DNA of 28,569 nucleotides from a virus: positions 1-28,569 of IMG/VR virus record IMGVR_UViG_3300021356_000126; one strand, given 5' to 3'. A program made the position numbers and the translations under genes. The notes under the pieces were generated by a model. That model saw only the letters and a program-made list of their open reading frames with translations. It did not search any database and was not told the DNA's origin. Every line of letters begins with the position of its first letter. The first letter of the stretch is position 1. Shown here piece by piece: positions 9,162-23,094 of this stretch.

Positions 9162-9174
9162 TATATAAGATATG
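9161..9174 (+). promoter_or_regulatory. 14-mer ATATATAAGATATG at a start codon, copy 1
   Basis: The sequence ATATATAAGATATG includes the ATG of the 9172 gene and is repeated exactly at 10279-10292, again including the start ATG. No Shine-Dalgarno sequence is present. It could be a TATA-type late promoter giving an almost leaderless transcript, or an AT-rich ribosome-loading sequence. The identity is observed; the role is inferred. Confidence 0.35.
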
Positions 9175-9540
9175 AAAACATTTGTAGAATATCTAAACGA
9201 GCAAAACATTTCCGAAGAGGATCTACGCATTTTAAACGAGGGTCTTCAAAGCGAGTGGACTGATGAATTAGAGGCTAAAGTAGACGAAGCTATAGATGCA
9301 TTTGCATCGGAATATATGTTAGAGGACGGAACCTATGATATTGATAGATTCAACGAGGAAATGACGAATGAAGGCATATTGGGCAGTATTATAGGAGGTC
9401 TCACTGGTTTTGCTTTAGGCAAGTCAGTAGGTAAACTAATTGCCAAAGTTTTAGGTGTACAAAAAGGTGTTTTATATGATCTATTAACTTCTAGGTTGGT
9501 CGGCGCCGCTTTAGGTGCTTCACTAGGAAAAAGATTCTAA
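9172..9540 (+). CDS. Pro-peptide-like glycine-zipper membrane protein with capsid-targeting-type N-terminus
   Basis: 122 residues in two contrasting halves. Residues 1-67 are strongly acidic (21 Asp/Glu against 4 Lys/Arg) and begin with MKTFVEYLNE, very like the T4 capsid-targeting peptide (MKTYQEFIxE), ending in an L-N-E site of the type cut by T4 gp21. A further L-N-E occurs at 21-23 and T-N-E at 65-67. Residues 68-122 are cationic (7 Lys/Arg, 1 Asp) and rich in small residues (GILGSIIGGLTGFALGKS), a glycine-zipper pattern able to insert in membranes. I infer a precursor packaged in the head and trimmed to release a membrane-active peptide, perhaps helping DNA entry. A tail or tape-associated role is the alternative. 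No homolog is recognised. Confidence 0.65.
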   Translation: MKTFVEYLNEQNISEEDLRILNEGLQSEWTDELEAKVDEAIDAFASEYMLEDGTYDIDRFNEEMTNEGILGSIIGGLTGFALGKSVGKLIAKVLGVQKGVLYDLLTSRLVGAALGASLGKRF

Positions 9541-9541
9541 A

Positions 9542-10192
9542 GTGAATTACGTAGCAGTTGATTTTTCACTCAACTCTCCTGGCATTTGTATCTATAATGA
9601 CAAGAGTAAAAGGTATCAGTTTATAAGCTATATTAAGCCAAAAACTGGAACCAAGGCTGAACAAGCTTTTCAAGAAGACATATCTAAACTTAAGGACGTT
9701 GCTTTAATCTATCAGCCTGACTTTACAACGAGTGATGCATACTCAAGTCAAGAGTTGAATAAGATTAAGAGGTATGATAAGATGGCCGATGATATCGTCA
9801 ACCTTATTCTACAAGAATCTCAACAAGGCGATGGCTATACGATAGCCTTTGAGGGTACAAGTTATGGTTCAAAGATGGGAACTAATAATATGATTGACAT
9901 GGCCGCGGGAGCTGCAGTACTCAAATTAAAGATGTTAAAGATCTTCAAGCCAGAAGATATTCAAACTATTGCTCCTACTACTATAAAGAAGTTTGCAGGT
10001 AAAGGTAACATGAACAAGACTCAGCTTTGTCAAGCCTTTTTAAATAATGTAAATGGAGATGCCTTCTTGATGAAGGGAGAATTATTCCATTTTGCAACAG
10101 CAAATGTAGATTCTGAGAAGAAAATCCCAAAGCCTTTAGATGACCTCATCGATGCTTATTTTCTTTCAGCTCTTTTAGCGTCAAAGGCTTAA
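9542..10192 (+). CDS. RuvC-like Holliday-junction resolvase
   Basis: 216 residues with a GTG start, two bases after the previous stop; there is no better in-frame start. An RNase H/RuvC-type nuclease fold is indicated by the first strand VAVDFSLNSPG with Asp7, a central strand IAFEG with Glu104 followed by SYGS, a basic segment IKKFAGKGNMNK (149-159), and a C-terminal LDDLIDAYFLSAL with Asp200/201/204. This D-E-D-D layout is that of RuvC-type junction endonucleases. The likely role is resolving branched DNA before packaging. T4 itself uses endonuclease VII (gp49), an unrelated fold, so this would be a functional replacement. Its position just upstream of gp32, primase, UvsY and UvsW fits a recombination role. 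Confidence 0.75.
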   Translation: MNYVAVDFSLNSPGICIYNDKSKRYQFISYIKPKTGTKAEQAFQEDISKLKDVALIYQPDFTTSDAYSSQELNKIKRYDKMADDIVNLILQESQQGDGYTIAFEGTSYGSKMGTNNMIDMAAGAAVLKLKMLKIFKPEDIQTIAPTTIKKFAGKGNMNKTQLCQAFLNNVNGDAFLMKGELFHFATANVDSEKKIPKPLDDLIDAYFLSALLASKA

Positions 10193-10207
10193 AGACTATT
10201 CTTTCCC

Positions 10208-10237
10208 TTGAGCCTAAAACCATTTATTGTATGCTAG
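10208..10237 (+). promoter_or_regulatory. Possible weak host-type promoter before small gene
   Basis: CTTG ends at 10210 and TATGCTAG lies at 10230-10237, 19 bases apart, roughly the Bacteroidota pattern TTTG-N19-TAnnTTTG, with mismatches in both boxes. It lies in the 97-base gap before the 10290 gene. Weak evidence. Confidence 0.2.
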
Positions 10238-10248
10238 TTACCACATTC

Positions 10249-10265
10249 TGTTTCATTAAGAAACA
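10249..10265 (+). other. Small inverted repeat in the 10193-10289 gap
   Basis: TGTTTC-ATTAA-GAAACA is a perfect 6-bp stem with a 5-base loop. It has no following T-run, so it is not a standard terminator. It may be an operator half-site pair or an mRNA hairpin upstream of the 10290 gene. Confidence 0.3.
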
Positions 10266-10278
10266 AATGGACTTTAAG

Positions 10279-10292
10279 ATATATAAGATATG
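10279..10292 (+). promoter_or_regulatory. 14-mer ATATATAAGATATG at a start codon, copy 2
   Basis: Exact second copy of the 9161-9174 element. The ATG at 10290-10292 occupies the same place in both. See copy 1 for possible meanings. Confidence 0.35.
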
Positions 10293-10517
10293 TTGATGAA
10301 CGATTTAAATTATTCTCACATGGACTTATGTACGTACGAGTTCCTTCAACTCAATAAGATCCTCAATAAAATGGTGTCTAGTAAGCACATTTCTCTAGAA
10401 GAAAAAGAAGAGCTACTACACAAGTCAGGGCTGACTAAGCTAGAGGACGGAAGTTGGAGTCAATATGTAGAAAGTACCAGAAGTGAGGTTATTTTAGATC
10501 TTTCTGAAACTCTTTAA
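10290..10517 (+). CDS. Small unknown protein upstream of gp32
   Basis: 75 residues, unrecognised. It is acidic and mainly helical, with LNKILNKMV and ISLEEKEELLHKSGLTKLEDG suggesting a small helical bundle, and ends LDLSETL. No metal-binding or membrane motif is visible. A second ATG lies two codons in (10296), but the conserved 14-mer that includes the ATG at 10290 favours the upstream start. It stands alone between a 97-base and a 69-base gap, so it may be separately transcribed. The stop codon overlaps the first TTAAAG unit of the gp32 leader. Confidence 0.55.
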   Translation: MLMNDLNYSHMDLCTYEFLQLNKILNKMVSSKHISLEEKEELLHKSGLTKLEDGSWSQYVESTRSEVILDLSETL

Positions 10518-10577
10518 AGTATTAAAGGTATAACAAACAACTTAAAGCTAATTTTAAGGTATTAACAAATTAAAGGT
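10514..10577 (+). promoter_or_regulatory. TTAAAG-repeat leader of the gp32 gene
   Basis: The short gap before gp32 holds two long imperfect direct repeats, TTAAAGGTATAACAAA (10522-10537) and TTTAAGGTATTAACAAA (10553-10569), plus TTAAAG units at 10514, 10542 and 10570. T4 gp32 represses its own translation by binding cooperatively to an unstructured A/U-rich leader. This leader is A/U-rich and repetitive, so the same kind of autoregulation is plausible. The repeats are observed; their role is inferred. Confidence 0.45.
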
Positions 10578-10586
10578 TTTTTTATT

Positions 10587-11498
10587 ATGGCAGATTTTGA
10601 TATTTTCAATCTCGGTGTTGAGGACGTAGAAACACACACTCAACAAACAACTACCTCAGCAAATGAGGTCTACAAGCCTACCGCTGATGACGGTAAGGAC
10701 GGAACTTACAAGGCGCTCGTTCGCTTTGTTCCAAACCCAGCTAACCCGCGTAACTCTCTTATCCAGAAGTACGTTCACTGGTTAGTTGATTCTAACGGTG
10801 ACGGCAAGATTGTCGACTCACCTCAAACTATCGGCGAGAAGTGCCCGATTGCAGATGTTTTCTGGAAGCTTCGTAAGTCCGATTCAGCTGTTGAGCGTAA
10901 GGCTTCAGACAAGCTTAAGCGTCGTCAACAGTACTATGCACTAATCAAGATTATCAAGGATCCTCAGAATCCAGATCTTGAAGGTCAGTACAAAGTATTC
11001 AAGTTCGGATACAAGATTAAAGAGAAGATCGATGCTGAGTTGAAGCCTGACTTCGGTGAACCAACACAGGTTTTCGACCTCTTTGAAGGCAAGAACTTCG
11101 AGTTGATTATTACCCGCCAAGGCGAGTATAACAACTACGATAAGTCTAAGTTCTCTGCATCGCGTTCTGCAGTCGTTGTTAACGGCGAACCAGCTGAGCG
11201 TAGCAAAGAAACCATGGAGACCATCAAGACAGAACTTGAAGGCGCACCAGACTTGTCAATGTACGACTATCAAGCATGGGACGAGGACACTCGCGAGTTT
11301 GTTAACAACGTACTTCGTATGTACCTCAACCCTGGAGATTCTATCGCTGAAGTCACTCCAAGCGCTGCGCCTAAGACGCAAGCGAAGAAAGAGCCAGTCA
11401 CCACTCCGGTCACTGCTACCACCGAGTCAACGTCAGACACCACTTCGGTCAGCACTGACGACGACCTTGATTCTTTCTTGAATGACCTCGACATCTAA
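10587..11498 (+). CDS. 32: gp32-type single-stranded DNA-binding protein
   Basis: 303 residues, like T4 gp32 (301). It coats ssDNA during replication, recombination and repair. The core is recognisable: a VRFVPNP strand, EKCPIADVFWKLRK, a basic RRQQYYALIKIIKDPQNP segment, GQYKVFKFGYKI, and FDLFEGKNFEL with NNYDKSKF, followed by a Thr/Ser/Pro-rich linker and an acidic tail ending DDDLDSFLNDLDI, the usual protein-interaction tail. T4 gp32 binds zinc through three Cys and one His; here only one Cys is present in that region, so the zinc site is probably lost. Codon use differs sharply from the neighbours (arginine CGT/CGC rather than AGA, many C-ending codons), as expected for a very abundant protein. 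The primase gene overlaps its end by 17 bases. Confidence 0.93.
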   Translation: MADFDIFNLGVEDVETHTQQTTTSANEVYKPTADDGKDGTYKALVRFVPNPANPRNSLIQKYVHWLVDSNGDGKIVDSPQTIGEKCPIADVFWKLRKSDSAVERKASDKLKRRQQYYALIKIIKDPQNPDLEGQYKVFKFGYKIKEKIDAELKPDFGEPTQVFDLFEGKNFELIITRQGEYNNYDKSKFSASRSAVVVNGEPAERSKETMETIKTELEGAPDLSMYDYQAWDEDTREFVNNVLRMYLNPGDSIAEVTPSAAPKTQAKKEPVTTPVTATTESTSDTTSVSTDDDLDSFLNDLDI

Positions 11499-12552
11499 TC
11501 TTACAGAGGATCTAAAGCACAAGATAAAGCTCGCGCTTAAGGACGTAGTAGTACAACAACACTCTGCTCCCAACAAGCAAACACTACGGGACATGTCAGG
11601 ACGAATAGTCTTGGCATGTCCTTATTGTGGTGATTCTCATAAAGACGATACTAAGAAGAGAGGTAACATATATTGGGACACTCTTCAGTACCACTGCTAT
11701 AACTGCAGCTATCATACTAACCTGTATGGCTTCTTAAAGGACCATGATGTTAGGATGCCAAATACTGGCGATTCGTTCGATGTCATAGATTACATTAAAG
11801 CCAATGAGAGAAGCGTTAAGAAGGTCGAGACTCTTCGTCATGGTGTATTTACCAAAGCTGATGAGCTTGCTATTCCTATAGACAAGTTCAAGCAATATTT
11901 TGGAGCAACTGATATTGAACCTGGAGATTGGATTTGGTTCAAGCTTAAGGAGCGATTGCTTCATCACATGACCGATCAGTTTTTGTACTCTGAAAGGGAC
12001 CAAAAGCTATGGATCCTTAACAAGACTCCAGAAGGTAATATACTAGCAGCTCAGAGCCGACGTATGAAGGGCAAAGGCTCCAGGTATCTCACTTACGATC
12101 TACCTAAGTTGTATGAAGAGATGAACATGGAGCTAAGTCTTGAAGAAGACGATCTTGTTAAGATAAGCAAAGTCTCAACCCTATTCGGTATCATGCAGAT
12201 TAACTTTCAACAAGACGTTACTATCTTCGAAGGTCCTCTCGATGCCAAGTTTATGTCTAACTCGCTCGCGTTGGCCACGGCAGGTCGATCAACAGAAGAG
12301 TTTGATAATATGGCAACCGTAAGATATATGTTTGACAACGATAAGACTGGTCGTGAGAAGATGGCGGAGAAACTTAAGAGAGGCCGACCAGTATTCATGT
12401 GGTCTAAATTCTTAAGCGAAAATAAGCTAGATACATATAATATAAAGGATTTAAACGATCTTATGATCGTATGTTACCGAGAGGGGTCTAAGGCTTACAA
12501 ACACATAAACGAATATTTTACCTCAAGCCAACTAGACCTATGGTACGTATAG
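11482..12552 (+). CDS. 61: DNA primase, gp61-type
   Basis: 356 residues, similar to T4 gp61 (342). It makes RNA primers for lagging-strand synthesis, working with a gp41-type helicase. An N-terminal zinc-binding domain is shown by CPYCGD (about 46-51) and the later CYNC (about 72-75). A TOPRIM-like catalytic core follows with VTIFEGPLDAKFMSN (motif E-G-P-x-D, about residues 249-257) and YMFDNDKTGREK (acidic DND). The start ATG lies inside the gp32 gene (17-base overlap), so translation is probably coupled, and the next gene overlaps the end by 13 bases. Assignment rests on the zinc pairs, the TOPRIM motifs and the neighbourhood. Confidence 0.88.
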   Translation: MTSTSNLTEDLKHKIKLALKDVVVQQHSAPNKQTLRDMSGRIVLACPYCGDSHKDDTKKRGNIYWDTLQYHCYNCSYHTNLYGFLKDHDVRMPNTGDSFDVIDYIKANERSVKKVETLRHGVFTKADELAIPIDKFKQYFGATDIEPGDWIWFKLKERLLHHMTDQFLYSERDQKLWILNKTPEGNILAAQSRRMKGKGSRYLTYDLPKLYEEMNMELSLEEDDLVKISKVSTLFGIMQINFQQDVTIFEGPLDAKFMSNSLALATAGRSTEEFDNMATVRYMFDNDKTGREKMAEKLKRGRPVFMWSKFLSENKLDTYNIKDLNDLMIVCYREGSKAYKHINEYFTSSQLDLWYV

Positions 12553-12761
12553 AAGATATAACGAAAATGGTTGAAGAGGATTTAGATAACTTCTACGAAG
12601 ACGGAAAGAGGTTCAAGGGTCACAAGCTGCTGCTTGACTTTGATAGCTCGGAATATGACGTAGAGTTACCTGAAACAGAGTCTATAAAACCAAAGTATAA
12701 AAAGAAAAAGAAGGCTAGCGTATTCGTTAAGCCTAAATCGAATAGAAGATCGCTATTTTAA
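12540..12761 (+). CDS. Small protein with basic tail, between primase and UvsY-like gene
   Basis: 73 residues, unrecognised. The N-terminal half is acidic and helical (VRIEDITKMVEEDLDNFYED); the C-terminal third is strongly basic (KPKYKKKKK) and ends KSNRRSLF. It overlaps the primase gene by 13 bases and shares TAATG with the next gene, so it belongs to the replication/recombination operon. The basic stretch suggests nucleic-acid contact. The terminal SLF is loosely like hydrophobic clamp-binding tails, but that is weak. Function unknown. Confidence 0.6.
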   Translation: MVRIEDITKMVEEDLDNFYEDGKRFKGHKLLLDFDSSEYDVELPETESIKPKYKKKKKASVFVKPKSNRRSLF

Positions 12762-13186
12762 TGGGAAGTAAAGAAAAAATATTGGAAATCGATGAGCGCT
12801 TAGGTAAACAGAGAAGCGAATGGTCTGACAAGATCAAAGAACTTGCTGACAGTCTTAAGTACATTAACGGCATGGAAGAAACCATCGCTAAGGTACTTTC
12901 GTCTCGCCAAACGTTAATCGATCAGATAGCATATATAAACACCAAGATTCGCGCACAAAAGGCAACTCTTGCTAATCGCAACCGCGAAGCTTACATTAGA
13001 TACTTTGAGTATGACTATAAGTTGGGTGAGAAGCAGAAGGTGATGTTTATGGAGGCAGATCTAGCCGACGACAACACTATACTTGCACACTTAGAGAACC
13101 AACTCGAATTTCTAAAAGAGTCGGTGAAGACCCTAGATAATATGGGCTTTGCCATCCGAAACAGACTTGCACTCAAGGATCTGTAA
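12761..13186 (+). CDS. uvsY: Probable UvsY-like recombination mediator
   Basis: 141 residues; T4 UvsY has 137. UvsY loads the UvsX recombinase onto gp32-coated ssDNA. The sequence is almost all helical: an N-terminal helix (EKILEIDERLGKQRSEW), a central basic part (KIRAQKATLANRNREAYIRYFEYDY), and a C-terminal part with ENQLEFLKESVKTLDNMGFAIRN that matches the end of UvsY proteins (LE.L...I...GFAI+N). Identity is low, so size, C-terminal pattern and adjacency to uvsW carry the call; uvsY and uvsW are also neighbours in T4. It starts in a TAATG overlap and is 23 bases from the next gene. Confidence 0.62.
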   Translation: MGSKEKILEIDERLGKQRSEWSDKIKELADSLKYINGMEETIAKVLSSRQTLIDQIAYINTKIRAQKATLANRNREAYIRYFEYDYKLGEKQKVMFMEADLADDNTILAHLENQLEFLKESVKTLDNMGFAIRNRLALKDL

Positions 13187-13209
13187 GGAAAAGAAAACAA
13201 CGAGTCAAT

Positions 13210-14718
13210 GTGGAACTTAGCTTAACAGAAAATAATCAGTTTCTAAGAGTAGATTCAGCGACAGAGTTAGAAATAGAACAACTCAACATCTCACTTACTA
13301 AGAGAATAGAATCATGGCGATTCAATCCCCTGGTCAAGCGAGGTGTCTGGGATGGTTACGTCTCGTATATTAAGGACGATAAGTGGATTCCTTCTGGATT
13401 GTGGAAGGAAATCATGGACATGTGCAAGGAGTATTCGTATGACCTTAAACTTAATGGTGTCACTGATCTTTTTGATAAGGGCGTTAACCAAGAAGAGTTT
13501 GAAGCTTGGGCTTTAGACTTCTTCAAGGACTCTGAGATTACTCCGCGCGACTATCAGATGGACGCCGCGTTCAACATCTTAAAGTTTAGAAGGTGTTTGG
13601 CAGAATTAGCTACTTCAGCCGGTAAGACACTCATCTCTTTCTTGGTAGTAGCATATATGCTTGAAAAGAAAAAGGCTAATAAAGTCTTATTTATAGTACC
13701 TAACGTTTCACTTGTAGTTCAAGCTAGTGAAGACTTTATGGACTACAACTATAAGAACCAAGTCAACATTAAGATTCAGCAGATTTACTCTGGCCAAAAG
13801 ATTAGAGCTGGTCGCAATGTTGTCATAGGAACTTATCAGTCACTTGTCAAGAAGAATAAAGAGTATTTCGAGCAGTTCGACGCTGTTATCATTGACGAGA
13901 CTCATAAGGCTAAGTCTAATTCTATTAAGACCATCTTGCAAAAATGTGTATCTGCTAAGTATCGTTTTGGTTTGTCAGGAACTATTCCCAAGAGAGGTAA
14001 GTTAGACAGACTCACTTTGATGGCTTACACTGGTCCGGTTATTACAGAGGTCAGCGCTAACTTCTTGCAAAAACAAGGTCACATTGCGGGATGTAAAGTT
14101 AAAGTCATCGAGATGGATTATGCACCTGATTCTACAAAACAGGCGTTTATGGAAATGGCTATGAACAAGTATGAGAGCAAAGACGTATTTAAGTTCGAGC
14201 AGAACTACATTATAAATTCCCCCGGCAGACTAAACTTTATTACTAACGTTATCTCTAAAATTCCCCGAAATTCCCTCGTCTTGTTTCATAGGATCGAACA
14301 TGGAAAGAAGCTCTACGAGAAACTAAGACAGGATAGCGATAAGGTCGTCTACTATGTAGATGGAGGCACTGACAAGGACATTAGAGAGGAGTATAAGAAA
14401 AAGATGGAAGCTGGAGAAGAAGTAGTGATCGTAGCATCATATGGCACCTTCTCAACTGGAATTTCTATCAAGAAAATACACAACATCTTCTTCACAGAAT
14501 CGTTTAAATCTGAGGTGATAATTAGACAATCTATTGGTCGCGGACTCAGACAACATGAGTCCAAGGATGAGGTTGTTATAGTAGATTTTGTTGATGATTT
14601 ATCTTCTGAAGAATGGTTTAATTATCTAATGCGACATGCCAGAGCCAGACAAAGGATTTACAAGGAGCAGAAGTTCACGTATACTGTGAAAAAGGTACAA
14701 TTCGAAGGAGATATATAG
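13210..14718 (+). CDS. uvsW: UvsW-type DNA/RNA helicase
   Basis: 502 residues with a GTG start (T4 UvsW 587). It is a superfamily 2 helicase that unwinds R-loops and remodels branched DNA, helping the switch from origin-driven to recombination-driven replication. Visible parts: an N-terminal UvsW-type DNA-binding region with NPLVKRGVWDGY (about 39-50), Q-motif-like TPRDYQMDA (111-119), Walker A ATSAGKT (134-140), motif Ia IVPNVSLVVQ, motif II DETH (229-232), motif III SGTIPKR (256-262), and motif VI RQSIGRGLRQ. The shorter length reflects loss at the ends, not of motifs. The last codons overlap a TATATAG box, a likely promoter for the cargo genes that follow. Confidence 0.92.
   Translation: MELSLTENNQFLRVDSATELEIEQLNISLTKRIESWRFNPLVKRGVWDGYVSYIKDDKWIPSGLWKEIMDMCKEYSYDLKLNGVTDLFDKGVNQEEFEAWALDFFKDSEITPRDYQMDAAFNILKFRRCLAELATSAGKTLISFLVVAYMLEKKKANKVLFIVPNVSLVVQASEDFMDYNYKNQVNIKIQQIYSGQKIRAGRNVVIGTYQSLVKKNKEYFEQFDAVIIDETHKAKSNSIKTILQKCVSAKYRFGLSGTIPKRGKLDRLTLMAYTGPVITEVSANFLQKQGHIAGCKVKVIEMDYAPDSTKQAFMEMAMNKYESKDVFKFEQNYIINSPGRLNFITNVISKIPRNSLVLFHRIEHGKKLYEKLRQDSDKVVYYVDGGTDKDIREEYKKKMEAGEEVVIVASYGTFSTGISIKKIHNIFFTESFKSEVIIRQSIGRGLRQHESKDEVVIVDFVDDLSSEEWFNYLMRHARARQRIYKEQKFTYTVKKVQFEGDI
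14712..14718 (+). promoter_or_regulatory. TATATAG late-promoter-like box, 31 nt before ATG
   Basis: TATATAGAAAAAG begins at 14712; the ATG of the next gene is at 14743. An almost identical arrangement, with the same 31-base distance, occurs at 19451 before the 19482 gene. The box resembles the T4 late promoter TATAAATA. The repeat and spacing are observed; promoter activity is inferred. Confidence 0.45.
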
Positions 14719-14742
14719 AAAAAGTAAAATAATACCATAATC

Positions 14743-15372
14743 ATGAATAAATTACAAGACTTTAATAGCTTTGCTTCAGCTAAAAGGCAAGAGGCTCAAA
14801 TTAAGTTAGAGCAAGAGCAAGACGCAAAGAGAACATCTAGCGCCGAAACATTTAAATCTCTTTTAGCCGAGTATGGCGTAACAGATCTTAATGAATTAGA
14901 TGAAGAGCAAAAAACTACTTTCTTTTTAAAGCTAAGAGGCGGAGAAGTAAATGAGGATGTTAATTATATGATTGATAGATTAGAAGAGGCATATTCAGTT
15001 ACTGAAGCTGAAGTTAAGTCTGATGAAGATTTTCAAGAGTATGCAATGACTGTCTTAAAGAAAGCCTTTGGTGAAGATTTTGATGAGGCTAAGGCACAAG
15101 AAACAATTGATGGTATTCTTGGTAAGGCAGATGGAGATTATGGCGCAGCTGTAGGTATGTTAACATCTTCTTTAGGAGAATCAGTTGAGGTTAACGAAGC
15201 TGACATCAAGTCAGACGAAGATTTTAAAGAGTATGCGTTCTCAGTTCTTCAAAAGGCTTTTGGAGATGAGTTTGACGAGGCGAAGGCACAAGAAGTTGTA
15301 GATGGTATTCTATCTAAAGCTGGAGGAGATTACGGTCAAGCTGCTGGCATGTTACAGAGCTCACTTGGCTAA
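14743..15372 (+). CDS. Tandem-repeat acidic protein of the cargo cluster
   Basis: 209 residues, unrecognised. The N-terminus MNKLQDFNSFASAKRQEAQ has the F-x-x-F spacing of the cargo peptides but lacks the nearby L-x-E. After a charged helix come two copies of a ~58-residue unit at about 88-145 and 151-209, offset by 64 residues, each containing KSDEDF-x-EYA, a KAFG-(D/E) segment, FDEAKAQE, DGIL and GDYG-x-A-x-GML. Each repeat is preceded by a possible protease site (SVTE before AEV, EVNE before ADI), as in other proteins of the cluster. It is very acidic, so it could be a scaffold-like or internal head protein. It has a TATATAG box upstream and overlaps the next gene by TAATG. Confidence 0.6.
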   Translation: MNKLQDFNSFASAKRQEAQIKLEQEQDAKRTSSAETFKSLLAEYGVTDLNELDEEQKTTFFLKLRGGEVNEDVNYMIDRLEEAYSVTEAEVKSDEDFQEYAMTVLKKAFGEDFDEAKAQETIDGILGKADGDYGAAVGMLTSSLGESVEVNEADIKSDEDFKEYAFSVLQKAFGDEFDEAKAQEVVDGILSKAGGDYGQAAGMLQSSLG

Positions 15373-16673
15373 TGGACAAACTGCTGTCATACGATCAATT
15401 TCTATTTGAAAAGACAAAGCCGGTATTATCAGACTATTCACTTATAGTTGAAGGTGGGGCTTATGGCCACCTTACGCACCCGTTTGAAGATTTAGGTCTT
15501 ACCATGCAAGACCTTCAGGACATGATCGATGTTACTGTAGAGGGTGCTTTTGGACCTGAGAATTTCGTACAAGAAAAGACTGATGGACAGCAACTTTCTA
15601 TTTCATGGAAAAACGGAAGGCTCATAGCAGCTCGTAACAAGCAACATCTAAAGAATGCCGGTGAGAATGCTATGGGACCAGAAGACTTAGCCGCTAAGTT
15701 TGCGGGCAAAGGAGATATAGAAGTAGCATACAATGCAGCCATGAGGGATCTTCAAGCTTCTATAGGTGCTCTATCCGATGATAACAAGTTAAAGATATTC
15801 GATGAAGGGCGTAAGTTCGCTAGCATTGAGGTCATAACTCCAGTCACACAAAACACAGTACCTTATGGTCAAGATATGTTAGTCTTTCACAGCATAGTAG
15901 AGTATGATGAAGAAGGCAACGTAATAGGCGAAGACAAACAAGCTGGCTACGAAATAGCTAAGATGATAGAGGATGCCAACTCAGCTGCTCAAGAGATGTT
16001 CTACATTAGAGGACCTAAGAATATAGATATAGTTCCCTTTAAGGATGCTAAGAAGAAGGCTAAGTACTACGGAGATAAGTTAAAGGCTATCATGAAGGAT
16101 GCTGGAATCAATACCACATCTACAGTTTCTGACTTCGTGATGGGATCAGCTTTGAATAAGGTTGATGAGTTGGCTAAAGAGTTTAAGGTTGAGCTTTCTG
16201 AAGAGGCGAGAGAGGGAATAGCAAGAAGATTGGGAGGCATAGACAAGTCTTACAATGCTAGACAAATGAAGAAAGATCTCGGCGATGTAGCTCAACTATT
16301 TACAGATCTTGAGAAGAAGGATGGCAAAATTATCAAGAAGAAGATATATGCCCCTCTTGAGAACCTATTTTTAGAAGTTGGTACTGAGATGATGAAGAAT
16401 ATGTCTTCGTTCCTGTCAGCAAACCCAACAGAGGCCTCTGAGTACATGAGAAAGGAGATAGAATCAACTATATCAACTCTTAGAAAAACAGGAGGAGAAG
16501 AAGAAATAAAGAAGCTAGAACACGAGCTTAGCAGAATAGCCGCTATAGGAGGTATGGAGAATATAGTGCCAACAGAAGGCATTACTTTCGTATTTAAGGA
16601 TAAGGTGTACAAATACACTGGCATCTTTGCTCCGATACACCAGATAAGATCGATGTTAGCATATAGAAAGTAA
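15372..16673 (+). CDS. Ligase-type nucleotidyltransferase with capsid-targeting-type N-terminus
   Basis: 433 residues. It begins MDKLLSYDQFLFE, a cargo-type peptide with L-F-E site at 11-13. The covalent nucleotidyltransferase (DNA/RNA ligase) core is visible: motif I EKTDGQQ with Lys69 as presumed AMP acceptor, Asp71 and Gly72; the following ARNK (87-90) in the place of motif Ia; a motif III-like strand IEVITP with Glu153 then VPYGQDMLVFHSIV; a helical insert (about 200-390); motif IV TEGITFVF (Glu402, Gly403); and motif V-like KVYKYTG (Lys411, Lys414). Known members join or cap nucleic-acid ends using ATP or NAD. The substrate (RNA or DNA) is not visible; an RNA ligase-like role is my preference given the neighbouring nucleotidyltransferases. 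Confidence 0.68.
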   Translation: MDKLLSYDQFLFEKTKPVLSDYSLIVEGGAYGHLTHPFEDLGLTMQDLQDMIDVTVEGAFGPENFVQEKTDGQQLSISWKNGRLIAARNKQHLKNAGENAMGPEDLAAKFAGKGDIEVAYNAAMRDLQASIGALSDDNKLKIFDEGRKFASIEVITPVTQNTVPYGQDMLVFHSIVEYDEEGNVIGEDKQAGYEIAKMIEDANSAAQEMFYIRGPKNIDIVPFKDAKKKAKYYGDKLKAIMKDAGINTTSTVSDFVMGSALNKVDELAKEFKVELSEEAREGIARRLGGIDKSYNARQMKKDLGDVAQLFTDLEKKDGKIIKKKIYAPLENLFLEVGTEMMKNMSSFLSANPTEASEYMRKEIESTISTLRKTGGEEEIKKLEHELSRIAAIGGMENIVPTEGITFVFKDKVYKYTGIFAPIHQIRSMLAYRK

Positions 16674-16676
16674 GTT

Positions 16677-17276
16677 ATGAAGTACCTTAAACTATTCGAA
16701 ACATTTATAAACGAGGCGGTAGAGATATCTAATCCCATAGACGGTAAGGAGGTAGTGATTATGCCTGGCAGGTTTCAGCCCTTTCATTTGGGCCACTTAG
16801 CAGCCATAGAAAATGCTTCCAAACAGTTCGGAAAGCCGGTTATTCCTATTCAAGTTATATCTAAGAAAGACAAGTCTCCGTTTCCAGAAAAGCTACTTCA
16901 ACAAATGGGAGATGATGTTGCCAAGAACGAGTCATATATAGAAAAGTTTTTTATATACCCACAAGGTTACGGTTTAACTGTCATCCCGTGGTTCGTACGT
17001 TTCTTGAGAGACAACGGCTACGAGACAGTTGGTATGGCGGCGGGCAGTGACAGAGAAAAGGCCTATGCTGGACAAATGAAGTATATAACTAGCGATAAGA
17101 CTGATACTGTGGTTAAGGATGAGTTTGAGATGAAGATCGTAGATCAGCGAGTCGAAGGAGGACCCAGTGGCACTAAAACTAGAGCGGCTATAGCGGATGG
17201 AGATGAAGAGGCGTTTAAGTCCATGGTGCCAACTTACTTGCATAAATACTACGATCAATTAAAGAAGCACCTATGA
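16677..17276 (+). CDS. NMNAT-like nucleotidyltransferase (HxGH) with capsid-targeting-type N-terminus
   Basis: 199 residues. The N-terminal peptide MKYLKLFETFINEA has an I-N-E site at 11-13. The enzyme then begins with a beta strand and GRFQPFHLGH (31-40), the HxGH signature of the cytidylyltransferase-like superfamily in the form typical of NMN adenylyltransferases (NadM/NadR). The C-terminal SGTKTRAAIADGDEEAF (from 164) matches their S-x-T-x-x-R nucleotide-binding motif. The likely reaction is NMN + ATP to NAD+ + PPi, although FAD or other nucleotidyl transfers are possible. The reading frame starts 3 bases after the ligase-like gene and overlaps the next gene by 4 bases. With a presumed removable head-targeting peptide, it may act in the host immediately after infection. 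Confidence 0.78.
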   Translation: MKYLKLFETFINEAVEISNPIDGKEVVIMPGRFQPFHLGHLAAIENASKQFGKPVIPIQVISKKDKSPFPEKLLQQMGDDVAKNESYIEKFFIYPQGYGLTVIPWFVRFLRDNGYETVGMAAGSDREKAYAGQMKYITSDKTDTVVKDEFEMKIVDQRVEGGPSGTKTRAAIADGDEEAFKSMVPTYLHKYYDQLKKHL

Positions 17277-18157
17277 TGAAGCACATTAAACTATTCGAGC
17301 AATTTTTATTCGAAAGCGGTAACGCTATAGAAGACTCAAGACCTGTAGAGCAGTCTGAGATACCCAAGACGCTAGAGTGGGTTGAGAAGAACGTTTATCC
17401 AATTATAGGTCTCGACGGTCTTGGAGAAGATGCTGCTGTAATAGGTAGCGCAGGTAAAAAGAAGGAAGGTCAAACTAGTGGGGACATAGACATTGCGGTT
17501 TCTGCTGATAAGATTGCAGGTTTCCTAGACACTTCTGTATCTAAAGTTTTATTTGAGATGAACAACGTGCTAAAGTCAGCTGGTATGAACACGAACATGG
17601 CAGTAGGTTTTCAGCAGGTTAGTATAGCTGCTCCTATCATGGGTGACTTTAAGAAGGGCGTTTGTCAAGTAGACCTAATGCTTTCTAGAGATATTAAGTG
17701 GAGCACATTCATGTATCACTCCCCTGACTTTACAAAGGACGAGTCCAAGTATAAGGGGGCATATAGAAACATTCTACTTATGGTAGCTATAGGATCCTCT
17801 TACGTGGAGATACTTGATAAAACTGAGGAAGATGAAGTTAAGGTATATCAAGCATATGTTATTAGGTTGAATCAAGGTGTTGTTCAAGTTAGAAAGTCGT
17901 ATGAGGGCAAGAGAGGTCTCTTAAAGAATGCTAAGCTTCTTAAGGAGTTTGATAAGGAGATAACTAATACTCCGCAAGAAGTTGTAGATCTACTCTTTGA
18001 TGGGGTTAACGTATCTCAAGTTATGACTTACGAATCATTAAGAGACTTGATAAACTCCAAGGCCTTTAAATTCCAAGATTTAAGGTATGAAATTTACGAC
18101 AAGTTTGCTAAGAGACTGGAACAGAGTGGTCTTCCACTTCCAGACGATATGGCATAA
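17273..18157 (+). CDS. Pol-beta-type nucleotidyltransferase with capsid-targeting-type N-terminus
   Basis: 294 residues. It starts MMKHIKLFEQFLFES (L-F-E site at 12-14). A Pol-beta superfamily active site follows: VIGSAGKKKEGQTSGDIDIAV, with Gly58-Ser59 and the metal-binding Asp71-x-Asp73, and the third carboxylate in CQVDLML (Asp134). The loop between GS and DxD is longer than usual, and the C-terminal half is helical (YESLRDLINSKAFKFQDLRYE). Relatives include CCA-adding enzymes, poly(A) polymerases and antitoxin/toxin nucleotidyltransferases, so the substrate could be tRNA, another RNA, a protein or a small molecule. Its place between two ligase-like proteins favours RNA-end work, but this is inference. 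ATGATG at the start leaves a one-codon ambiguity. Confidence 0.7.
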   Translation: MMKHIKLFEQFLFESGNAIEDSRPVEQSEIPKTLEWVEKNVYPIIGLDGLGEDAAVIGSAGKKKEGQTSGDIDIAVSADKIAGFLDTSVSKVLFEMNNVLKSAGMNTNMAVGFQQVSIAAPIMGDFKKGVCQVDLMLSRDIKWSTFMYHSPDFTKDESKYKGAYRNILLMVAIGSSYVEILDKTEEDEVKVYQAYVIRLNQGVVQVRKSYEGKRGLLKNAKLLKEFDKEITNTPQEVVDLLFDGVNVSQVMTYESLRDLINSKAFKFQDLRYEIYDKFAKRLEQSGLPLPDDMA

Positions 18158-18158
18158 A

Positions 18159-18165
18159 TATATAG
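18159..18165 (+). promoter_or_regulatory. CATAAATATATAG box before the 18170 gene
   Basis: CATAAATATATAG (18153-18165) contains both a near match to the T4 late box TATAAATA (one mismatch) and the TATATAG found before other cargo genes. It lies only 11 bases from the ATG, so a transcript from it would have almost no leader. Role inferred. Confidence 0.3.
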
Positions 18166-18169
18166 TATC

Positions 18170-19450
18170 ATGGCACTTCAAAATTTAAGAACACATTTCG
18201 AGTCGTCTAACAGAAACGAATTTAACTCTCTTTTAAAGCAGAGGTGTTTGGTTACTGAAAAGATCCAAGCTTCCTCGTTTCATGCTAGGAAAACTGATAA
18301 GGGCTACGATTATTACAAGAGCGGGTCTAGAACCCCTATGAACAAAGTGGACAGAACTATCGTTAGGTATTATGAGAATGCAATAGATTACTTTAAATCT
18401 ATTCCTAAAGAAGTTAGGGAAGATATGCCTACAGATTGGAAGTTTGGTTTCGATTATATGACTGAGACCAGAACAGTAGACATTCAATATGATGCTTTGC
18501 CAAAGAATAACTTGATTCTAACGCATATTCAAGTTTTAAATCCAACTGATCCAACTCAAATAAAGAAAGTGATAAGAGATCCCAAAGTTCTAGAAAAATG
18601 GGCTAATATCCTACAAGTTCAAGCTCCGCCTATATTGTTTGACGGAGTTTTAGATTCTAATCAAAAGGACATGCTAATTGATCTTTTAGAGATGAGCGAC
18701 GAAGCATTTAAAAACGTGTTCGAAGATACTTCATTTACTAGAAAGGTCTATAGCATTTTTAATCGCATGGCAAATAAGACTGCTCTTAACGAAAGCCTAG
18801 ACGGAGACATAGATTCACTTATAGTCTCGTTTATTGATAAAAAGAATATTAAGAATTTCAAGCTTGGTAGATTTGATAAGATTGAAGAAAAAGAAAGAGA
18901 AGCTTCAGACATGTATCAAATTACAATTTTAGATCTTGTTGAGTACATGACTCAGTTCAATATGGATAAAGTAAAGCTGGTTGAAGAAGACACTGACTTA
19001 AGATATATTGAGTTGGTCTCAGAGATATTTAACCAATATATGACTAAGAACGCAGTTAAGTACATTGGAGCTGAGTTTGACTCGGCTGGTTTCTCTAGTA
19101 GAAAAGGATTCGAGCTCAATAAGGATTTCATCAAGAATGAGGGTACGGTAAAGCTTATTCAAAATGAGGATCTATCTGAATTGTTTAAGATTATGCTAGG
19201 CTCTTTTAGGAAGAAGAGAACTAAGGAGACCAAGATTATAAACTCAGATCTTATGAGTCAGATGAATGAGATAGTTGAAAAGATAGAGGCTGTAGTAATG
19301 TCTAAGAAGAACGAGTCCGAGATTATGGCCTTCAATACTTATCTGAAGCATCAAAAGATACAAACTCAGTCTAGTCCTGTTATAAACGAAGAGGATGCAT
19401 TGGATGAAGGAGAAACCATAATGACTTTCAACCAGTTTGTGGGACAATAA
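18170..19450 (+). CDS. Divergent ligase-like (Rnl2-type) protein with cargo-type peptide at the C-terminus
   Basis: 426 residues. TEKIQASSFHARK (29-41) is close to motif I of T4 RNA ligase 2-type enzymes (EKIHG-x-NF), with Lys31 as candidate nucleotidyl lysine, although the usual Gly is Ala. FGFDYM and VDIQYDALPKNNLILTHI (about 93-120) fit the motif III region; IDSLIVSF (215-222) and NFKLGRF (229-235) could be degenerate motifs IV and V. It therefore looks like a divergent or possibly inactive ligase-fold protein. There is no N-terminal cargo peptide; instead the last residues, IMTFNQFVGQ, copy the F-x-x-F pattern, preceded by an I-N-E site (VINEED). A TATATAG box lies just upstream and another just downstream. 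Confidence 0.55.
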   Translation: MALQNLRTHFESSNRNEFNSLLKQRCLVTEKIQASSFHARKTDKGYDYYKSGSRTPMNKVDRTIVRYYENAIDYFKSIPKEVREDMPTDWKFGFDYMTETRTVDIQYDALPKNNLILTHIQVLNPTDPTQIKKVIRDPKVLEKWANILQVQAPPILFDGVLDSNQKDMLIDLLEMSDEAFKNVFEDTSFTRKVYSIFNRMANKTALNESLDGDIDSLIVSFIDKKNIKNFKLGRFDKIEEKEREASDMYQITILDLVEYMTQFNMDKVKLVEEDTDLRYIELVSEIFNQYMTKNAVKYIGAEFDSAGFSSRKGFELNKDFIKNEGTVKLIQNEDLSELFKIMLGSFRKKRTKETKIINSDLMSQMNEIVEKIEAVVMSKKNESEIMAFNTYLKHQKIQTQSSPVINEEDALDEGETIMTFNQFVGQ

Positions 19451-19457
19451 TATATAG
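19451..19457 (+). promoter_or_regulatory. TATATAG late-promoter-like box, 31 nt before ATG
   Basis: TATATAGAAAAAG starts at 19451, directly after the previous stop codon; the ATG is at 19482. Sequence and distance to the ATG match the element at 14712. An A-rich leader without a Shine-Dalgarno sequence follows. Confidence 0.45.
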
Positions 19458-19481
19458 AAAAAGAAATAAAACTAACATAAC

Positions 19482-21890
19482 ATGAACTTCAACGATTTTT
19501 TAAACGAGAAGAGAAACGTTACTTTAAAAAGAAGGTATACTGATAATCATCCAGCTATAGAAGCTGGTCTAACTGCAAGAGTTAGGAACAAGATGATTGA
19601 AGCAGTTGCTGATGGTAAGTTGTCTCAAGAAGAATTTAAAACAATTCTATCTGAGTTTAGCACTGATTCTGCCAGATGGATTAGAAGAAACGCAAAGTAC
19701 TTTAATGTATCCGAAGACGGTATTAGCTTGTCTAAGTTTGGTAAGAGATTGTTGAAGACAGTTATTATTACTGAGAACGAAGCCGTCATTCTTGAATCTA
19801 CCAGATCACACGTTGGTATTATAGATAAGAGAGGTAAAATCATCTCTACCTACGTTCACAACGATGGATATCCAGAAGGAGTTGGAGCTATGGTTGTAAA
19901 TCACTTTGCAGATACTCGCAAGGTCAAGGAGCTTCTAAAGCTTGGTAAGTGGGGAATATCTTACTTAGAACCGGGCATTGAAGGCGGTGAAGGCCACTCA
20001 TTCAATACTCCAGTCGATGGAGAGACTGTATTCTACGGAAGAGATAGAGGTCAAAAGAAATTTGTATCTACTTTTACCGCCGATCAAAGAGATTTACAAG
20101 ATTACTTAGCTGACGTTTCTAACGATGCTGGAGCTGAGTATGTTTACCTATGGGACGAAGCCGCTAAGAAGTGGATGTACGCCGAAACTTCAACCAGCGC
20201 TGGAAGAAGACAAGGTCTTAAGGTTTTAGAGAACGTTGAAACAATAGGAGATGAGTTATTTGAAGGTAGAAATGCTTTTATAACTGCAGCAAGAACTGCT
20301 AAGTCTGAAGGTCTAAAGGAGTTTGAATTTAAGGGTAAGACTTTCCCAGTTACAGTAAAGGACGTAAGCGAAGAAGAGGTCGAAGAGGTCGAAGAGGTCG
20401 TTGAAACAAAGGATTTGGTTTTTGAATCGTTCTCAGATTTTGTATCTAAGTTAAACGAAGAACAAGTCAACGAATGGGGATCTTCTGACAGCTACGCCAT
20501 GAGTGTAGAAATTCATCACTATATTAAGAAGCCTAAAAAGATGCCTTCTCCATTTGATAAAAAACTAAGAGATGCAGCCGAGTATGCAGTTGAGCGTCAT
20601 TGGTCAGAATGGCCAGAGTACAGAACTAGGCATGAAAGCCTAGTGGACGACGCTGTTAGAACATATCTAAGACACTTTCATAGAGATGAGTACATGAATA
20701 TGGTTAAGATGTTTGCACCAGTTGACGAGTCTACTGTAAATGAAACCAGATTCTATGCTATATTTCAAAGTGCTAAACATGAGATAGAAGCTAAAGATTT
20801 ATACGATGCTAAAAAGAAGGCAGTTGCACAACTTAAGATTAAGAAGAAAGACCTAGGTCTACTTGCTATTGTCAATGCAGATCAGCATGATGATTTCTCA
20901 AAGGGCAAGAATATGGATTTTGCCTTTGAAGGCGAAGAGCTTAACGAAGCATTTAAGTCTGCTAAGCTACAGCAATTGTTTAATACCAAACAAGGTAGTC
21001 AATGGACTAAAAGACCTATCAAGGATTTGCCAAAGGCATTCTATGGCATGACTAAAGTTGCATTAGACAAAGTAGAAGATGGTGATTTAATCGATATGGC
21101 TGATCCAAAAGAAGCCCATGCTCTTGATAAGGCAGGCAAAGGCAGATATGTTATCTTCTATATTGTAGATCAACCAAAAGATAATCAATATGCACCGACC
21201 GAAGGTTATGGTACTATTCCTCCTGGAATTATAGCGATCGTTAGAAATAATAACTTCCAAGGTTTAACATGGGATAGAACATACCGTGGCAATAAAGGAG
21301 GAAGAACTTTAGGCTCCACTGATGACGGAGGAGTAGGCATAAGCAAGAAGTATAAAGGCTGGGACGGTACAGGCTTATACAACCCTAAGAGAATCGCTGA
21401 TGTAGCCGATAGAGCTGTCATGCTTGACATCAATGCCCTACAAGATAAGTACTCTACTCAAGGCAAGAGAGCCGATAGAGAGGCTGCTAAGAAAGGAGCA
21501 ACTGCATTTAAGAGTGATAGAGACTTTAGACAAGAGAATATGAAAAGGTATAAGCAAATCCTAGCTGATAAAGCAGCTAATCTTCCGCTTGATAAGATGG
21601 TCAATGACGCTATCGATATGTTATCTGCTCAAATCAAGCACGGTCTTGAGTCTGGAGAAACTAACAACGGTGAGCCAATCTTAGGACACGATCCTAAGGG
21701 TAGACCAGTTAGAATGAGAGATGCATCTAATCATATGTCCAATATTCTAGACGACTATGCAGACTATGTTAGATACTCTAACGAAGCTAAAGATTCTATT
21801 GGTGACTACTATGCTGCAAGAGTTAAAGAAGAGGCTAAGTCTATCAAAGATAGAATCAACAAGATCGCCACAATGAACTACGTTTGGTAA
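19482..21890 (+). CDS. Modular cargo polyprotein with capsid-targeting-type N-terminus
   Basis: 802 residues. It begins MNFNDFLNEK (L-N-E site at 7-9). Modules in order: a charged helical part with SKFGKRLLK (84-92); a domain (about 108-240) with SHVGIIDKRGKIISTYVHND and GYPEGVG, resembling a phage family of unknown function; an acidic linker EEEVEEVEEVVE (about 298-308); a second cargo-like peptide VFESFSDFVSKLNEEQVNEW (313-332); a short helical part ending at a VNE site (419-421); a small domain FYAIFQSAKHEIEAKDL (from 424); an LNE site (487-489); and a C-terminal ~310-residue part of unknown function (YVIFYIVDQP, TIPPGIIAIV, ADRAVMLDI). The sites fall between modules, so processing by a prohead protease is inferred. 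T4 Alt, an injected ADP-ribosyltransferase, is a position analogue only; no catalytic triad is seen. Confidence 0.65.
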   Translation: MNFNDFLNEKRNVTLKRRYTDNHPAIEAGLTARVRNKMIEAVADGKLSQEEFKTILSEFSTDSARWIRRNAKYFNVSEDGISLSKFGKRLLKTVIITENEAVILESTRSHVGIIDKRGKIISTYVHNDGYPEGVGAMVVNHFADTRKVKELLKLGKWGISYLEPGIEGGEGHSFNTPVDGETVFYGRDRGQKKFVSTFTADQRDLQDYLADVSNDAGAEYVYLWDEAAKKWMYAETSTSAGRRQGLKVLENVETIGDELFEGRNAFITAARTAKSEGLKEFEFKGKTFPVTVKDVSEEEVEEVEEVVETKDLVFESFSDFVSKLNEEQVNEWGSSDSYAMSVEIHHYIKKPKKMPSPFDKKLRDAAEYAVERHWSEWPEYRTRHESLVDDAVRTYLRHFHRDEYMNMVKMFAPVDESTVNETRFYAIFQSAKHEIEAKDLYDAKKKAVAQLKIKKKDLGLLAIVNADQHDDFSKGKNMDFAFEGEELNEAFKSAKLQQLFNTKQGSQWTKRPIKDLPKAFYGMTKVALDKVEDGDLIDMADPKEAHALDKAGKGRYVIFYIVDQPKDNQYAPTEGYGTIPPGIIAIVRNNNFQGLTWDRTYRGNKGGRTLGSTDDGGVGISKKYKGWDGTGLYNPKRIADVADRAVMLDINALQDKYSTQGKRADREAAKKGATAFKSDRDFRQENMKRYKQILADKAANLPLDKMVNDAIDMLSAQIKHGLESGETNNGEPILGHDPKGRPVRMRDASNHMSNILDDYADYVRYSNEAKDSIGDYYAARVKEEAKSIKDRINKIATMNYVW
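20373..20399 (+). repeat. Three perfect copies of GAAGAGGTC in an acidic linker
   Basis: A 9-base unit is repeated three times in frame, encoding EEV-EEV-EEV in the linker just before the second cargo-like peptide of the polyprotein. Such a tract can change length by slippage without a frameshift. Confidence 0.9.
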
Positions 21891-21891
21891 T

Positions 21892-23094
21892 ATGCCTGCA
21901 AAGAGTAAAGCACAACAAAGATTAATGGGAGTTGCATACGCCGTCAAAAAAGGTGATATGCAACTTTCTGATGTTGATGCCTCTTACAAAGATGAGGTTA
22001 AAGACCTTGTTGATAACATGAGTCTTAATTCTCTTAAAAAATATGCAGCAACTAAACACGATGGTTTACCAGAAAGAGTACCTGAAAATATTCAGGTCGG
22101 TCAGATTAATGGCATGGGACCAATTGAATTGCCAGCTGATGGCTTACTTGGATCAGGAGATGTTCCAGCTGGAAGCGGCGATGCTGAAGAAGAATACAAA
22201 AAAAAGAAAAAGAAGATGGCAAACTTCGAAGAATTTATAAGTGGACTAAATCAATCAAATGTTGATGAAGTATATGGAGGTAACGCTTCTGATTTTAAAT
22301 ATGAATTTACAAATCAGTTTGAAGAAGTTACGGGCTTTTCTGATAAAGCTATTAAAGGCATTAAGAAGAAAGGTAAAAACGGATATGAAGTTAGAACTTC
22401 TACGTATGCGGGTAAAAAATATATGGAGGCCGTTGGCAAAGAAATGGGTCTAGAACTTAAAGAGTTTGAGCAACACAGTAATATGTGCATTTCGGTTTAT
22501 GAGGCTGTTGAAGAATCTGCAGTTACTGAAGCAAAAAAGTACACCGTAGAAGATGTCTTATCCGCATGGGAAGATGCCTTTGGTGAAGACATGAGAGAAA
22601 CTGATAGAGCAGATATACCTGATGATATTGAAGCTGATTACAGGGGCAAAGTTACCGCAAAGGACCTACAAGAAATCTATGACGATCGTTATGGAGAAGA
22701 ATTAGAGCCTGAGTTTTTAGAAGCTCTTGGAGAGTCTGTAGTAAACGAAATCAGAATGTCTTCGTGGGGAGAATTGGTCTACACAGAAGCTCAGGTTAAT
22801 ACGACTCATGGCTGGTGCGGAACGCTGGCTAACGAACTAGGTGAAGATAAGGCGATGTTCTTAACGCATCAGTCTATTCATGAGCTTCAGAAAAGAGCAA
22901 TGGGTCTAACGGCTTGGGAAGCTCTAGCGGTTCTTAACTCAAAGGCAGGTAGACATGCTGCTGAAGCTTATTTAGGTGGAGACGCAGCTGCTTCTGATGC
23001 ACTTTCTGCATTGATCTGGTATTTCGGCAGCAAGTCTAAGCTTGCTAAAGCCGCTAAAGAAGAAAGAGAGCTTCAGTTCCCTAACGAGAAGTAA
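21892..23094 (+). CDS. DUF3008-like protein fused to further cargo modules
   Basis: 400 residues. The first 65 (MPAKSKAQQRLMGVAYAVKK ... YAATKHDGLPERV) match the small DUF3008 phage family, normally a separate short protein. A Gly/Pro linker and a lysine run (103-108) lead to MANFEEFISGLNQ (from Met109), which looks like a cargo N-terminus placed internally. Three more modules follow, separated by V-T-E (211-213) and V-N-E (284-286) sites: FKYEFTNQFEEVTGFSDKAI, TVEDVLSAWEDAFGEDM and SWGELVYTEAQVNTTHGWCG. None has a known activity. An internal start at 22216 (ATG of Met109), behind an A/G-rich stretch, could yield the second half separately. This is the last gene of the long operon; a terminator begins 26 bases after its stop. 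Confidence 0.65.
   Translation: MPAKSKAQQRLMGVAYAVKKGDMQLSDVDASYKDEVKDLVDNMSLNSLKKYAATKHDGLPERVPENIQVGQINGMGPIELPADGLLGSGDVPAGSGDAEEEYKKKKKKMANFEEFISGLNQSNVDEVYGGNASDFKYEFTNQFEEVTGFSDKAIKGIKKKGKNGYEVRTSTYAGKKYMEAVGKEMGLELKEFEQHSNMCISVYEAVEESAVTEAKKYTVEDVLSAWEDAFGEDMRETDRADIPDDIEADYRGKVTAKDLQEIYDDRYGEELEPEFLEALGESVVNEIRMSSWGELVYTEAQVNTTHGWCGTLANELGEDKAMFLTHQSIHELQKRAMGLTAWEALAVLNSKAGRHAAEAYLGGDAAASDALSALIWYFGSKSKLAKAAKEERELQFPNEK

Follow-up and report, generated by a model that had tools for sequence, protein, structure and literature searches.

A probable T4-type head-targeting peptide on dozens of unrelated proteins of large, uncultured aquatic phages suggests a large enzyme kit that may be delivered with the DNA

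A short N-terminal peptide resembling the capsid-targeting leader (CTS) of the T4 internal proteins is shared by dozens of unrelated proteins in a group of large, uncultured aquatic phages, suggesting that a large enzyme kit is delivered with the DNA. We consider it very probable that this tag is a T4-type capsid-targeting propeptide of an expanded head-cargo system, in which the bodies are packaged and cut free by a gp21-type protease. Packaging and cleavage are strongly inferred, there being neither an isolate nor virion proteomics; injection and an anti-host function are speculative and rest on the analogy with T4 Alt and IPI-III (PMC12373910).

The window, by which we mean the whole stretch of 28,569 nucleotides that was analysed, is a 28.6 kb virus record that encodes T4-like UvsW, UvsY (a weak match), SSB and primase. 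It is a fragment, and the gp21 gene is absent from these 28.6 kb. The T4 late promoter TATAAATA has one match in the window, on the opposite strand, fewer than the 3.4 expected by chance and therefore uninformative. Close relatives are present among viral contigs, and four large ones were analysed in full: G001 (166 kb), G005 (144 kb), G006 (246 kb) and the distant G008 (142 kb). The relevant features of the window are the following (evidence in parentheses).

9172..9540, +, small tagged protein with a glycine-zipper-like hydrophobic stretch at the C-terminus (sequence, orthologues)
9172-9201, +, tag MKTFVEYLNE, N-terminus of the 9172 gene
14743..15372, +, untagged protein from this gene block, in which a ~60-aa domain occurs twice (sequence comparison)
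14998-15006, +, VTE88, bound of the ~60-aa domain in the 14743 protein (cassette comparison)
15190-15198, +, VNE152, bound of the ~60-aa domain in the 14743 protein (cassette comparison)
15372..16673, +, tagged ligase-type covalent nucleotidyltransferase, EKTDG (invariant EKxDG, weak fold match)
15372-15410, +, tag MDKLLSYDQFLFE, N-terminus of the 15372 gene
15444-15452, +, second predicted cleavage site of the 15372 protein, I-V-E27 (E27 invariant in orthologues, P3 L/I/V)
16677..17276, +, tagged HxGH nucleotidyltransferase, NMNAT/cytidylyltransferase-like (PF01467, phrog_3041)
16677-16715, +, tag MKYLKLFETFINE, N-terminus of the 16677 gene
17273..18157, +, tagged Pol-beta-type nucleotidyltransferase (Foldseek, AlphaFold model)
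17273-17314, +, tag MMKHIKLFEQFLFE, N-terminus of the 17273 gene
18170..19450, +, untagged second ligase-like protein in the same operon-like block as the tagged genes (excluded from the tagged count)
19482..21890, +, tagged multidomain polyprotein (cassette comparison)
19482-19508, +, tag MNFNDFLNE, N-terminus of the 19482 gene
19767-19775, +, predicted site ITE98 of the 19482 protein (homology block boundary)
20466-20474, +, predicted site VNE331 of the 19482 protein (sequence only)
20736-20744, +, predicted site VNE421 of the 19482 protein (homology block boundary)
20940-20948, +, predicted site LNE489 of the 19482 protein (homology block boundary)
21892..23094, +, DUF3008 protein with an internal tag-like copy (DUF3008 E = 7.7e-11)
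22216-22254, +, internal tag-like copy MANFEEFISGLNQ in the 21892 gene, after Met109 (partial, Glu missing)
22522-22530, +, predicted site VTE213 of the 21892 protein
22741-22749, +, predicted site VNE286 of the 21892 protein (cassette boundary)

The five N-terminal peptides that a preliminary description of this DNA had singled out (at 9172, 15372, 16677, 17273 and 19482) are real gene starts and lie where it placed them, and all five fit [FY]xx[FY][LIV]xE. The check it proposed, a motif search of N-termini against a shuffled control, came out clearly: [FYW]xx[FYW][LIVM]xE occurs in the first 22 residues of 5 of the 29 window genes, whereas shuffled N-termini average 0.10 matches and never exceed 2 (Poisson p = 9e-8) and internal 22-residue stretches predict 0.16. 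The pattern rests on published genetics as well as on the window because its constrained positions are the four targeting and processing positions of T4 IPIII (leader MKTYQEFIAE), in which amber-suppressor genetics assigned residues 4 and 7 mainly to capsid targeting and residues 8 and 10 to processing (PMC9026906). In a control search of 255 T4 ORFs, the pattern gave 4 matches, IPII and IPIII among them. The start of T4 gp61.1 (gene 61.1, NC_000866 18966-19130), MKTFKEFIKED, fits the full CTS pattern, and gp61.1 may, judging by its sequence, be an unrecognised packaged protein of T4.

The functional assignments that had been proposed for the bodies behind these peptides hold to different degrees. 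The HxGH nucleotidyltransferase (16677) stands, with matches to PF01467 (CTP_transf_like, E = 3e-7) and phrog_3041 (E = 1.6e-12), and most of its orthologues retain the tag. So does the Pol-beta-type enzyme (17273), the AlphaFold model of which (pLDDT 83.6, tag residues 1-15 below 50) is matched by Foldseek to DNA polymerase beta (E = 7e-5, probability 1.0); its closest named-phage homologues are found in Prevotella Lak megaphages (33-34% identity). The ligase-type call for the 15372 protein is supported by the invariant EKxDG, but the best fold matches, T4 RNA ligases 1 and 2, lack significance (E = 0.05; model pLDDT 73.9). PDB sequence-profile searches with the 15372, 17273 and 18170 proteins gave nothing significant. 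For the 9172 protein, the tag is real, and orthologues in L003, L005 and L006 retain IKTFNEYLTE, but the glycine-zipper call is weak, resting on a Gly-zipper_Omp match in the G001 orthologue (E = 6e-4) that is below the family cut-off. In the window, the internal copy reported behind Met109 in the 21892 gene is incomplete, the Glu being absent, but it is complete in the orthologues from L003 (MKHLKNFESFLNE), L004 (MKHLKTFEAFVNE) and L006 (MKHLNNFESFVNE). DUF3008 occurs on its own beside a near-tagged gene in LR756500 (L068 20261-20644) and is fused before the complete internal tag in the relatives of the window.

Five genes, although all real, proved to be far too low an estimate of the scale, which amounts to 17-29 tagged genes per genome: 17 of 196 in G001, 28 of 214 in G005 and 29 of 318 in G006, compared with means of 0.60, 0.80 and 1.24 for shuffled N-termini (p = 2e-19, 3e-33 and 2e-29, respectively). 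Tagged genes thus represent 9-13% of the genes in these three large genomes and are spread over several clusters. The expansion is not general across all relatives, given that the distant G008 (49% GC) has only 4 matches, with 0.4-1.0 expected. As had been claimed for the window, the bodies behind the common peptide are unrelated: counted within each genome, there are 17 families for 17 tagged proteins in G001, 28 for 28 in G005 and 28 for 29 in G006, that is, 73 families for 74 proteins.

The consensus of 79 tags is M-K-[NH]-[IL]-[PK]-[TS]-F-[ED]-[EQ]-F-[LIV]-N-E, with the first aromatic residue exactly six residues after Met in 53 of them. This residue is F in 62 tags and Y in 17, the second aromatic is F in 65, Y in 9 and W in 5, and the position before x-E is L in 42, I in 19 and V in 18. 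The Glu is present in all 79 but is demanded by the search pattern, as are the aromatics at the targeting positions; the pattern itself is enriched 20-35-fold. The P1' residue after the Glu, which the pattern leaves free, is mostly S, A, G or N. When genes of one genome that carry the modal tag are compared, codon positions 1 and 2 are 69-78% identical and position 3 only 48-49%, and the 30 bases upstream are 36-38% identical. Given these variable synonymous sites and unconserved upstream DNA, the peptide, not the DNA, is under selection, and recent DNA duplication does not account for the copies.

Most of the 74 tagged proteins have no family match. Those that can be recognised include 3 HxGH adenylyl/cytidylyltransferases, an HD phosphohydrolase, a family-2 glycosyltransferase (GT2), KTSC and DUF5856. 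The presence of the tag on clearly non-virion proteins would have refuted the proposal, and such cases were sought among the 74: no polymerase, helicase, primase, terminase, ribonucleotide reductase or tail family was detected with Pfam and PHROGs, the sole exception being a weak RuvC-like match (E = 0.005). In the window, UvsW, UvsY, SSB, primase and RuvC lack the tag. Searches of the tagged set for PADLOC defence families gave weak single matches only. The tagged DUF5856 protein of G006 (153000-153428; PHROG annotation, starvation-inducible regulator) is possibly a DNA-binding protein loaded with the genome. A tagged protein of G001 (126140-126859) without a Pfam match contains an HExxH motif, RHELEHI, recognised by eye, and is a possible metalloprotease cargo.

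A gp21-like protease, to be looked for elsewhere according to the preliminary description, is encoded by every large close relative and was detected in 22 of the 26 large tag-bearing contigs. Peptidase_S77 (gp21; PF03420) is above the cut-off in G001, G003, G005, G006 and G008 and in 21 of the 22 contigs; it was undetected in the remaining 4 of the 26, and IMG/VR records may be fragments. The G001 protein scores 54.3 bits (cut-off 27) and matches the T4 gp21 sequence of PDB 5jbl with E = 5e-6, and the proteases of the relatives contain conserved GELDHP and ISSRAAG blocks. The N-termini of the protease in G001 and its relatives (LLIVE, LLILE, LLVLE) are similar to the LIE-9 site of T4 gp21. The protease ORF is long (604-820 aa), with a repetitive or coiled C-terminal extension (G001 43482-45410, G005 103909-105813, G006 81957-83801 and L278-L294), which suggests a protease fused with a gp22-like scaffold; in T4, the protease and the gp22 scaffold are encoded by two separate genes.

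The head module also carries the tag. The gene order in G001 is portal, a tagged acidic-tailed protein of 134 aa, gp21 and major capsid protein, and the same order, with a tagged acidic-tailed protein of ~112-134 aa, is found in several other genomes. The portal-gp21 slot is strictly tagged in L278, L280, L282, L284, L287, L289 and L290 (L280 and L282 are near-identical) and near-tagged in L283, L285, L286 and L288; in G015, judging by coordinates, a tagged start lies 389 bases before gp21. In T4, this slot is occupied by gp67 and gp68. The argument is positional because the start of T4 gp67 is not CTS-like. Across 18 sequences of the major capsid protein, an [LI][YN]E site is aligned that reads LNE or INE in L291-L294 and is comparable to the FLTE site of T4 gp23, but this is supportive only since the surrounding block is conserved in general.

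Signs of processing come from orthologue comparison. Two enzyme families have, in 17 of 17 orthologues, an invariant Glu directly ahead of the body, with L/I/V at P3 (L012 being counted from its RLDE-GGG sequence), behind leaders of 13-108 residues. In the ligase-type enzyme, the leader is 18-41 residues long, and [LIV]-x-E always precedes the body GG[AGS][YF]GHL. In the Pol-beta enzyme, leaders of 13-108 residues all end in [LIV]-x-E followed by [SG]GNA, and the Glu is invariant in 7 orthologues; L004 and L006 have an extra domain between a first and a second FEQFVSE. The 19482 and 21892 proteins are multidomain by cassette comparison, most domains lacking a known-family match (Pfam, PHROGs). 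Where blocks are shared with differently built proteins of the relatives, their ends coincide with V/L-N/T-E sites or lie only a few residues away, namely, ITE98, VNE421 and LNE489 (19482), VTE88 and VNE152 (14743) and VNE286 (21892), so that the multidomain proteins look like shuffled cassettes joined at putative cleavage sites. Because [LIV]NE and [LIV]TE tripeptides, like the reversed controls, show no consistent excess in tagged bodies over other proteins, internal cleavage is argued solely from cassette boundaries and orthologue comparison.

The tag is widespread among viral contigs. A degenerate, gene-blind DNA pattern gave 114 listed matches in 80 viral loci; among these, 109 open into at least 50 codons, nearly all are at a gene start, and most begin a few codons past the preceding in-frame stop. 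A stricter pattern retrieved at least 120 stretches in viral contigs. Among named phages, a tblastn search with the bare tag peptide gave no good match (best E = 7), so no isolate was found with close copies, and a literature search with the peptide letters returned no matching paper. Distant homologues of single bodies occur in Lak phages, Sinorhizobium phage Phosso, Microcystis phage Mel-JY01 and LR756500/LR756508; the tag expansion was not clearly seen in the first 50 kb of Mel-JY01. One aquatic lineage that may be related is that of the moraphages (PMC12619734).

Other explanations of the tag have to be weighed. That it is a chance or compositional artefact of AT-rich, Phe/Glu-rich N-termini might have been entertained for a short motif with only five cases in the window, but this is ruled out for practical purposes by the shuffled N-termini of three genomes (p 2e-19 to 3e-33), by the absence of matches to the reversed DNA pattern in the 26 large contigs, where the forward pattern has up to 24 matches per genome, and by the absence of forward matches to the stricter pattern in 257 Gb of GTDB bacterial and archaeal genomes. 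It is improbable, in our estimate, that the peptide is an uncleaved docking or localisation tag unconnected with the head, such as an amphipathic membrane anchor, a replication-compartment import signal or a host-protein-binding helix. A short aromatic and acidic helix could be a generic docking motif, cleavage data are lacking, and the disorder of the tag in the AlphaFold model of the Pol-beta protein fits any detachable tag; however, the invariant Glu is the T4 processing residue (PMC9026906), every orthologue retains [LIV]xE immediately ahead of its body despite variable leaders, and the tag is found on the gp67-slot gene of a head module in genomes that encode the protease.

Harder to set aside, although still unlikely, is the possibility that the tagged proteins are indeed packaged by the tag but mainly as structural parts of the core or scaffold, remaining in the prohead or being degraded there in the manner of T4 gp22, gp67 and gp68. 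The packaging step is common to this possibility and the cargo interpretation, which differ on the fate of the proteins. The location of several tagged genes inside the head module, one of them in the gp67 slot, and the small size and acidity of some tagged proteins are what a core role would predict, whereas the many enzyme domains (HxGH and Pol-beta nucleotidyltransferases, HD, GT2, KTSC) and the wide variation of the tagged sets between relatives, like that of T4 internal proteins and unlike that of core proteins, are not. We prefer CTS packaging with gp21 removal because it is the sole reading that joins the peptide, the protease, the head-gene position and the conserved processing glutamates. 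The central proposal of the preliminary description, a T4-CTS-like packaging peptide cut by a gp21-like protease, is supported by residue positions, the protease, the gp67-slot tag and the absence of the tag from clearly non-virion proteins (a weak RuvC-like match aside), with packaging and cleavage inferred.

Under the cargo interpretation, a tagged protein would dock late in infection on the scaffold core of the assembling head via the aromatic face of the peptide, [FY]xx[FY]. The gp21-type prohead protease would cut after [LIV]-x-E, mostly L/I/V-N-E and often at one or two sites, setting the body free inside the capsid, and multidomain members would be cut further into cassettes at V/L-N/T-E linkers. 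The freed nucleotidyltransferases, ligase-like, HD and glycosyltransferase proteins, a possible protease and many unknown folds might then leave the head along with the DNA and, early on, target the host or its defences. Whether, in uncultured, widespread large T4-like phages, a head-loading tag has become a general address label, with about a tenth of the genes serving as exchangeable cargo, including polyproteins cut by the protease in the capsid, and then injected, appears to us evenly balanced.

The T4 internal proteins are textbook phage effectors delivered with the DNA, but there are only three in T4, and to our knowledge, each known target represents just one type of restriction enzyme. 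In G001, G005 and G006, a single readable peptide picks out 17-29 proteins each, most of them unknown, yielding from sequence alone a catalogue of candidate injected effectors that spans many uncultured phages and likely includes counter-defence and host take-over factors. How much protein a phage can deliver, and which proteins act ahead of phage gene expression, become directly testable questions, and a large set of natural tags, complete with [LIV]NE cut sites, is on offer for loading proteins into phage heads.

Although T4-type CTS cargo is known in kind, the literature searched describes neither such an extent nor the enzyme content nor the protease-bounded cassettes, and these look new. 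The polyvalent proteins of phages and conjugative elements are multidomain effectors, Pol-beta nucleotidyltransferases included, that are predicted to be packaged and injected, and in these respects may resemble the tagged proteins, but the accessible part of that source describes no conserved packaging tag or prohead-protease linker for them (PMC5512222). As in phages of the phiKZ/SPN3US type, multiple head and ejection proteins would be trimmed after x-E by a gp21-related protease; in those giant phages, however, several propeptides exceed 100 residues, with S/A-x-E as the motif in phiKZ (PMC5694885, PMC9026906), compared with tags of 9-14 residues and L/I/V-x-E here. The variable ip genes of T-even phages, which block GmrSD nucleases (Repoila 1994, via PMC12373910), likewise combine diverse bodies with one conserved leader and are read as arms-race cargo; T4, however, has three ip genes at two loci, in contrast to 9-13% of genes in several clusters. 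The closest parallel is the CTS of T4 IPI-III, which is also N-terminal from Met and ~10-14 residues long, with aromatics at 4 and 7, I/L at 8 and Glu 10, and which likewise precedes unrelated bodies, with a gp21-type protease in the related genomes and the portal, protease, capsid gene order; unlike in T4, V is tolerated at P3 and N is strongly favoured at P2, the protease ORF has a ~450-aa C-terminal extension, and the tags extend to enzymes and multidomain proteins and number 17-29 per genome, where T4 has about three.
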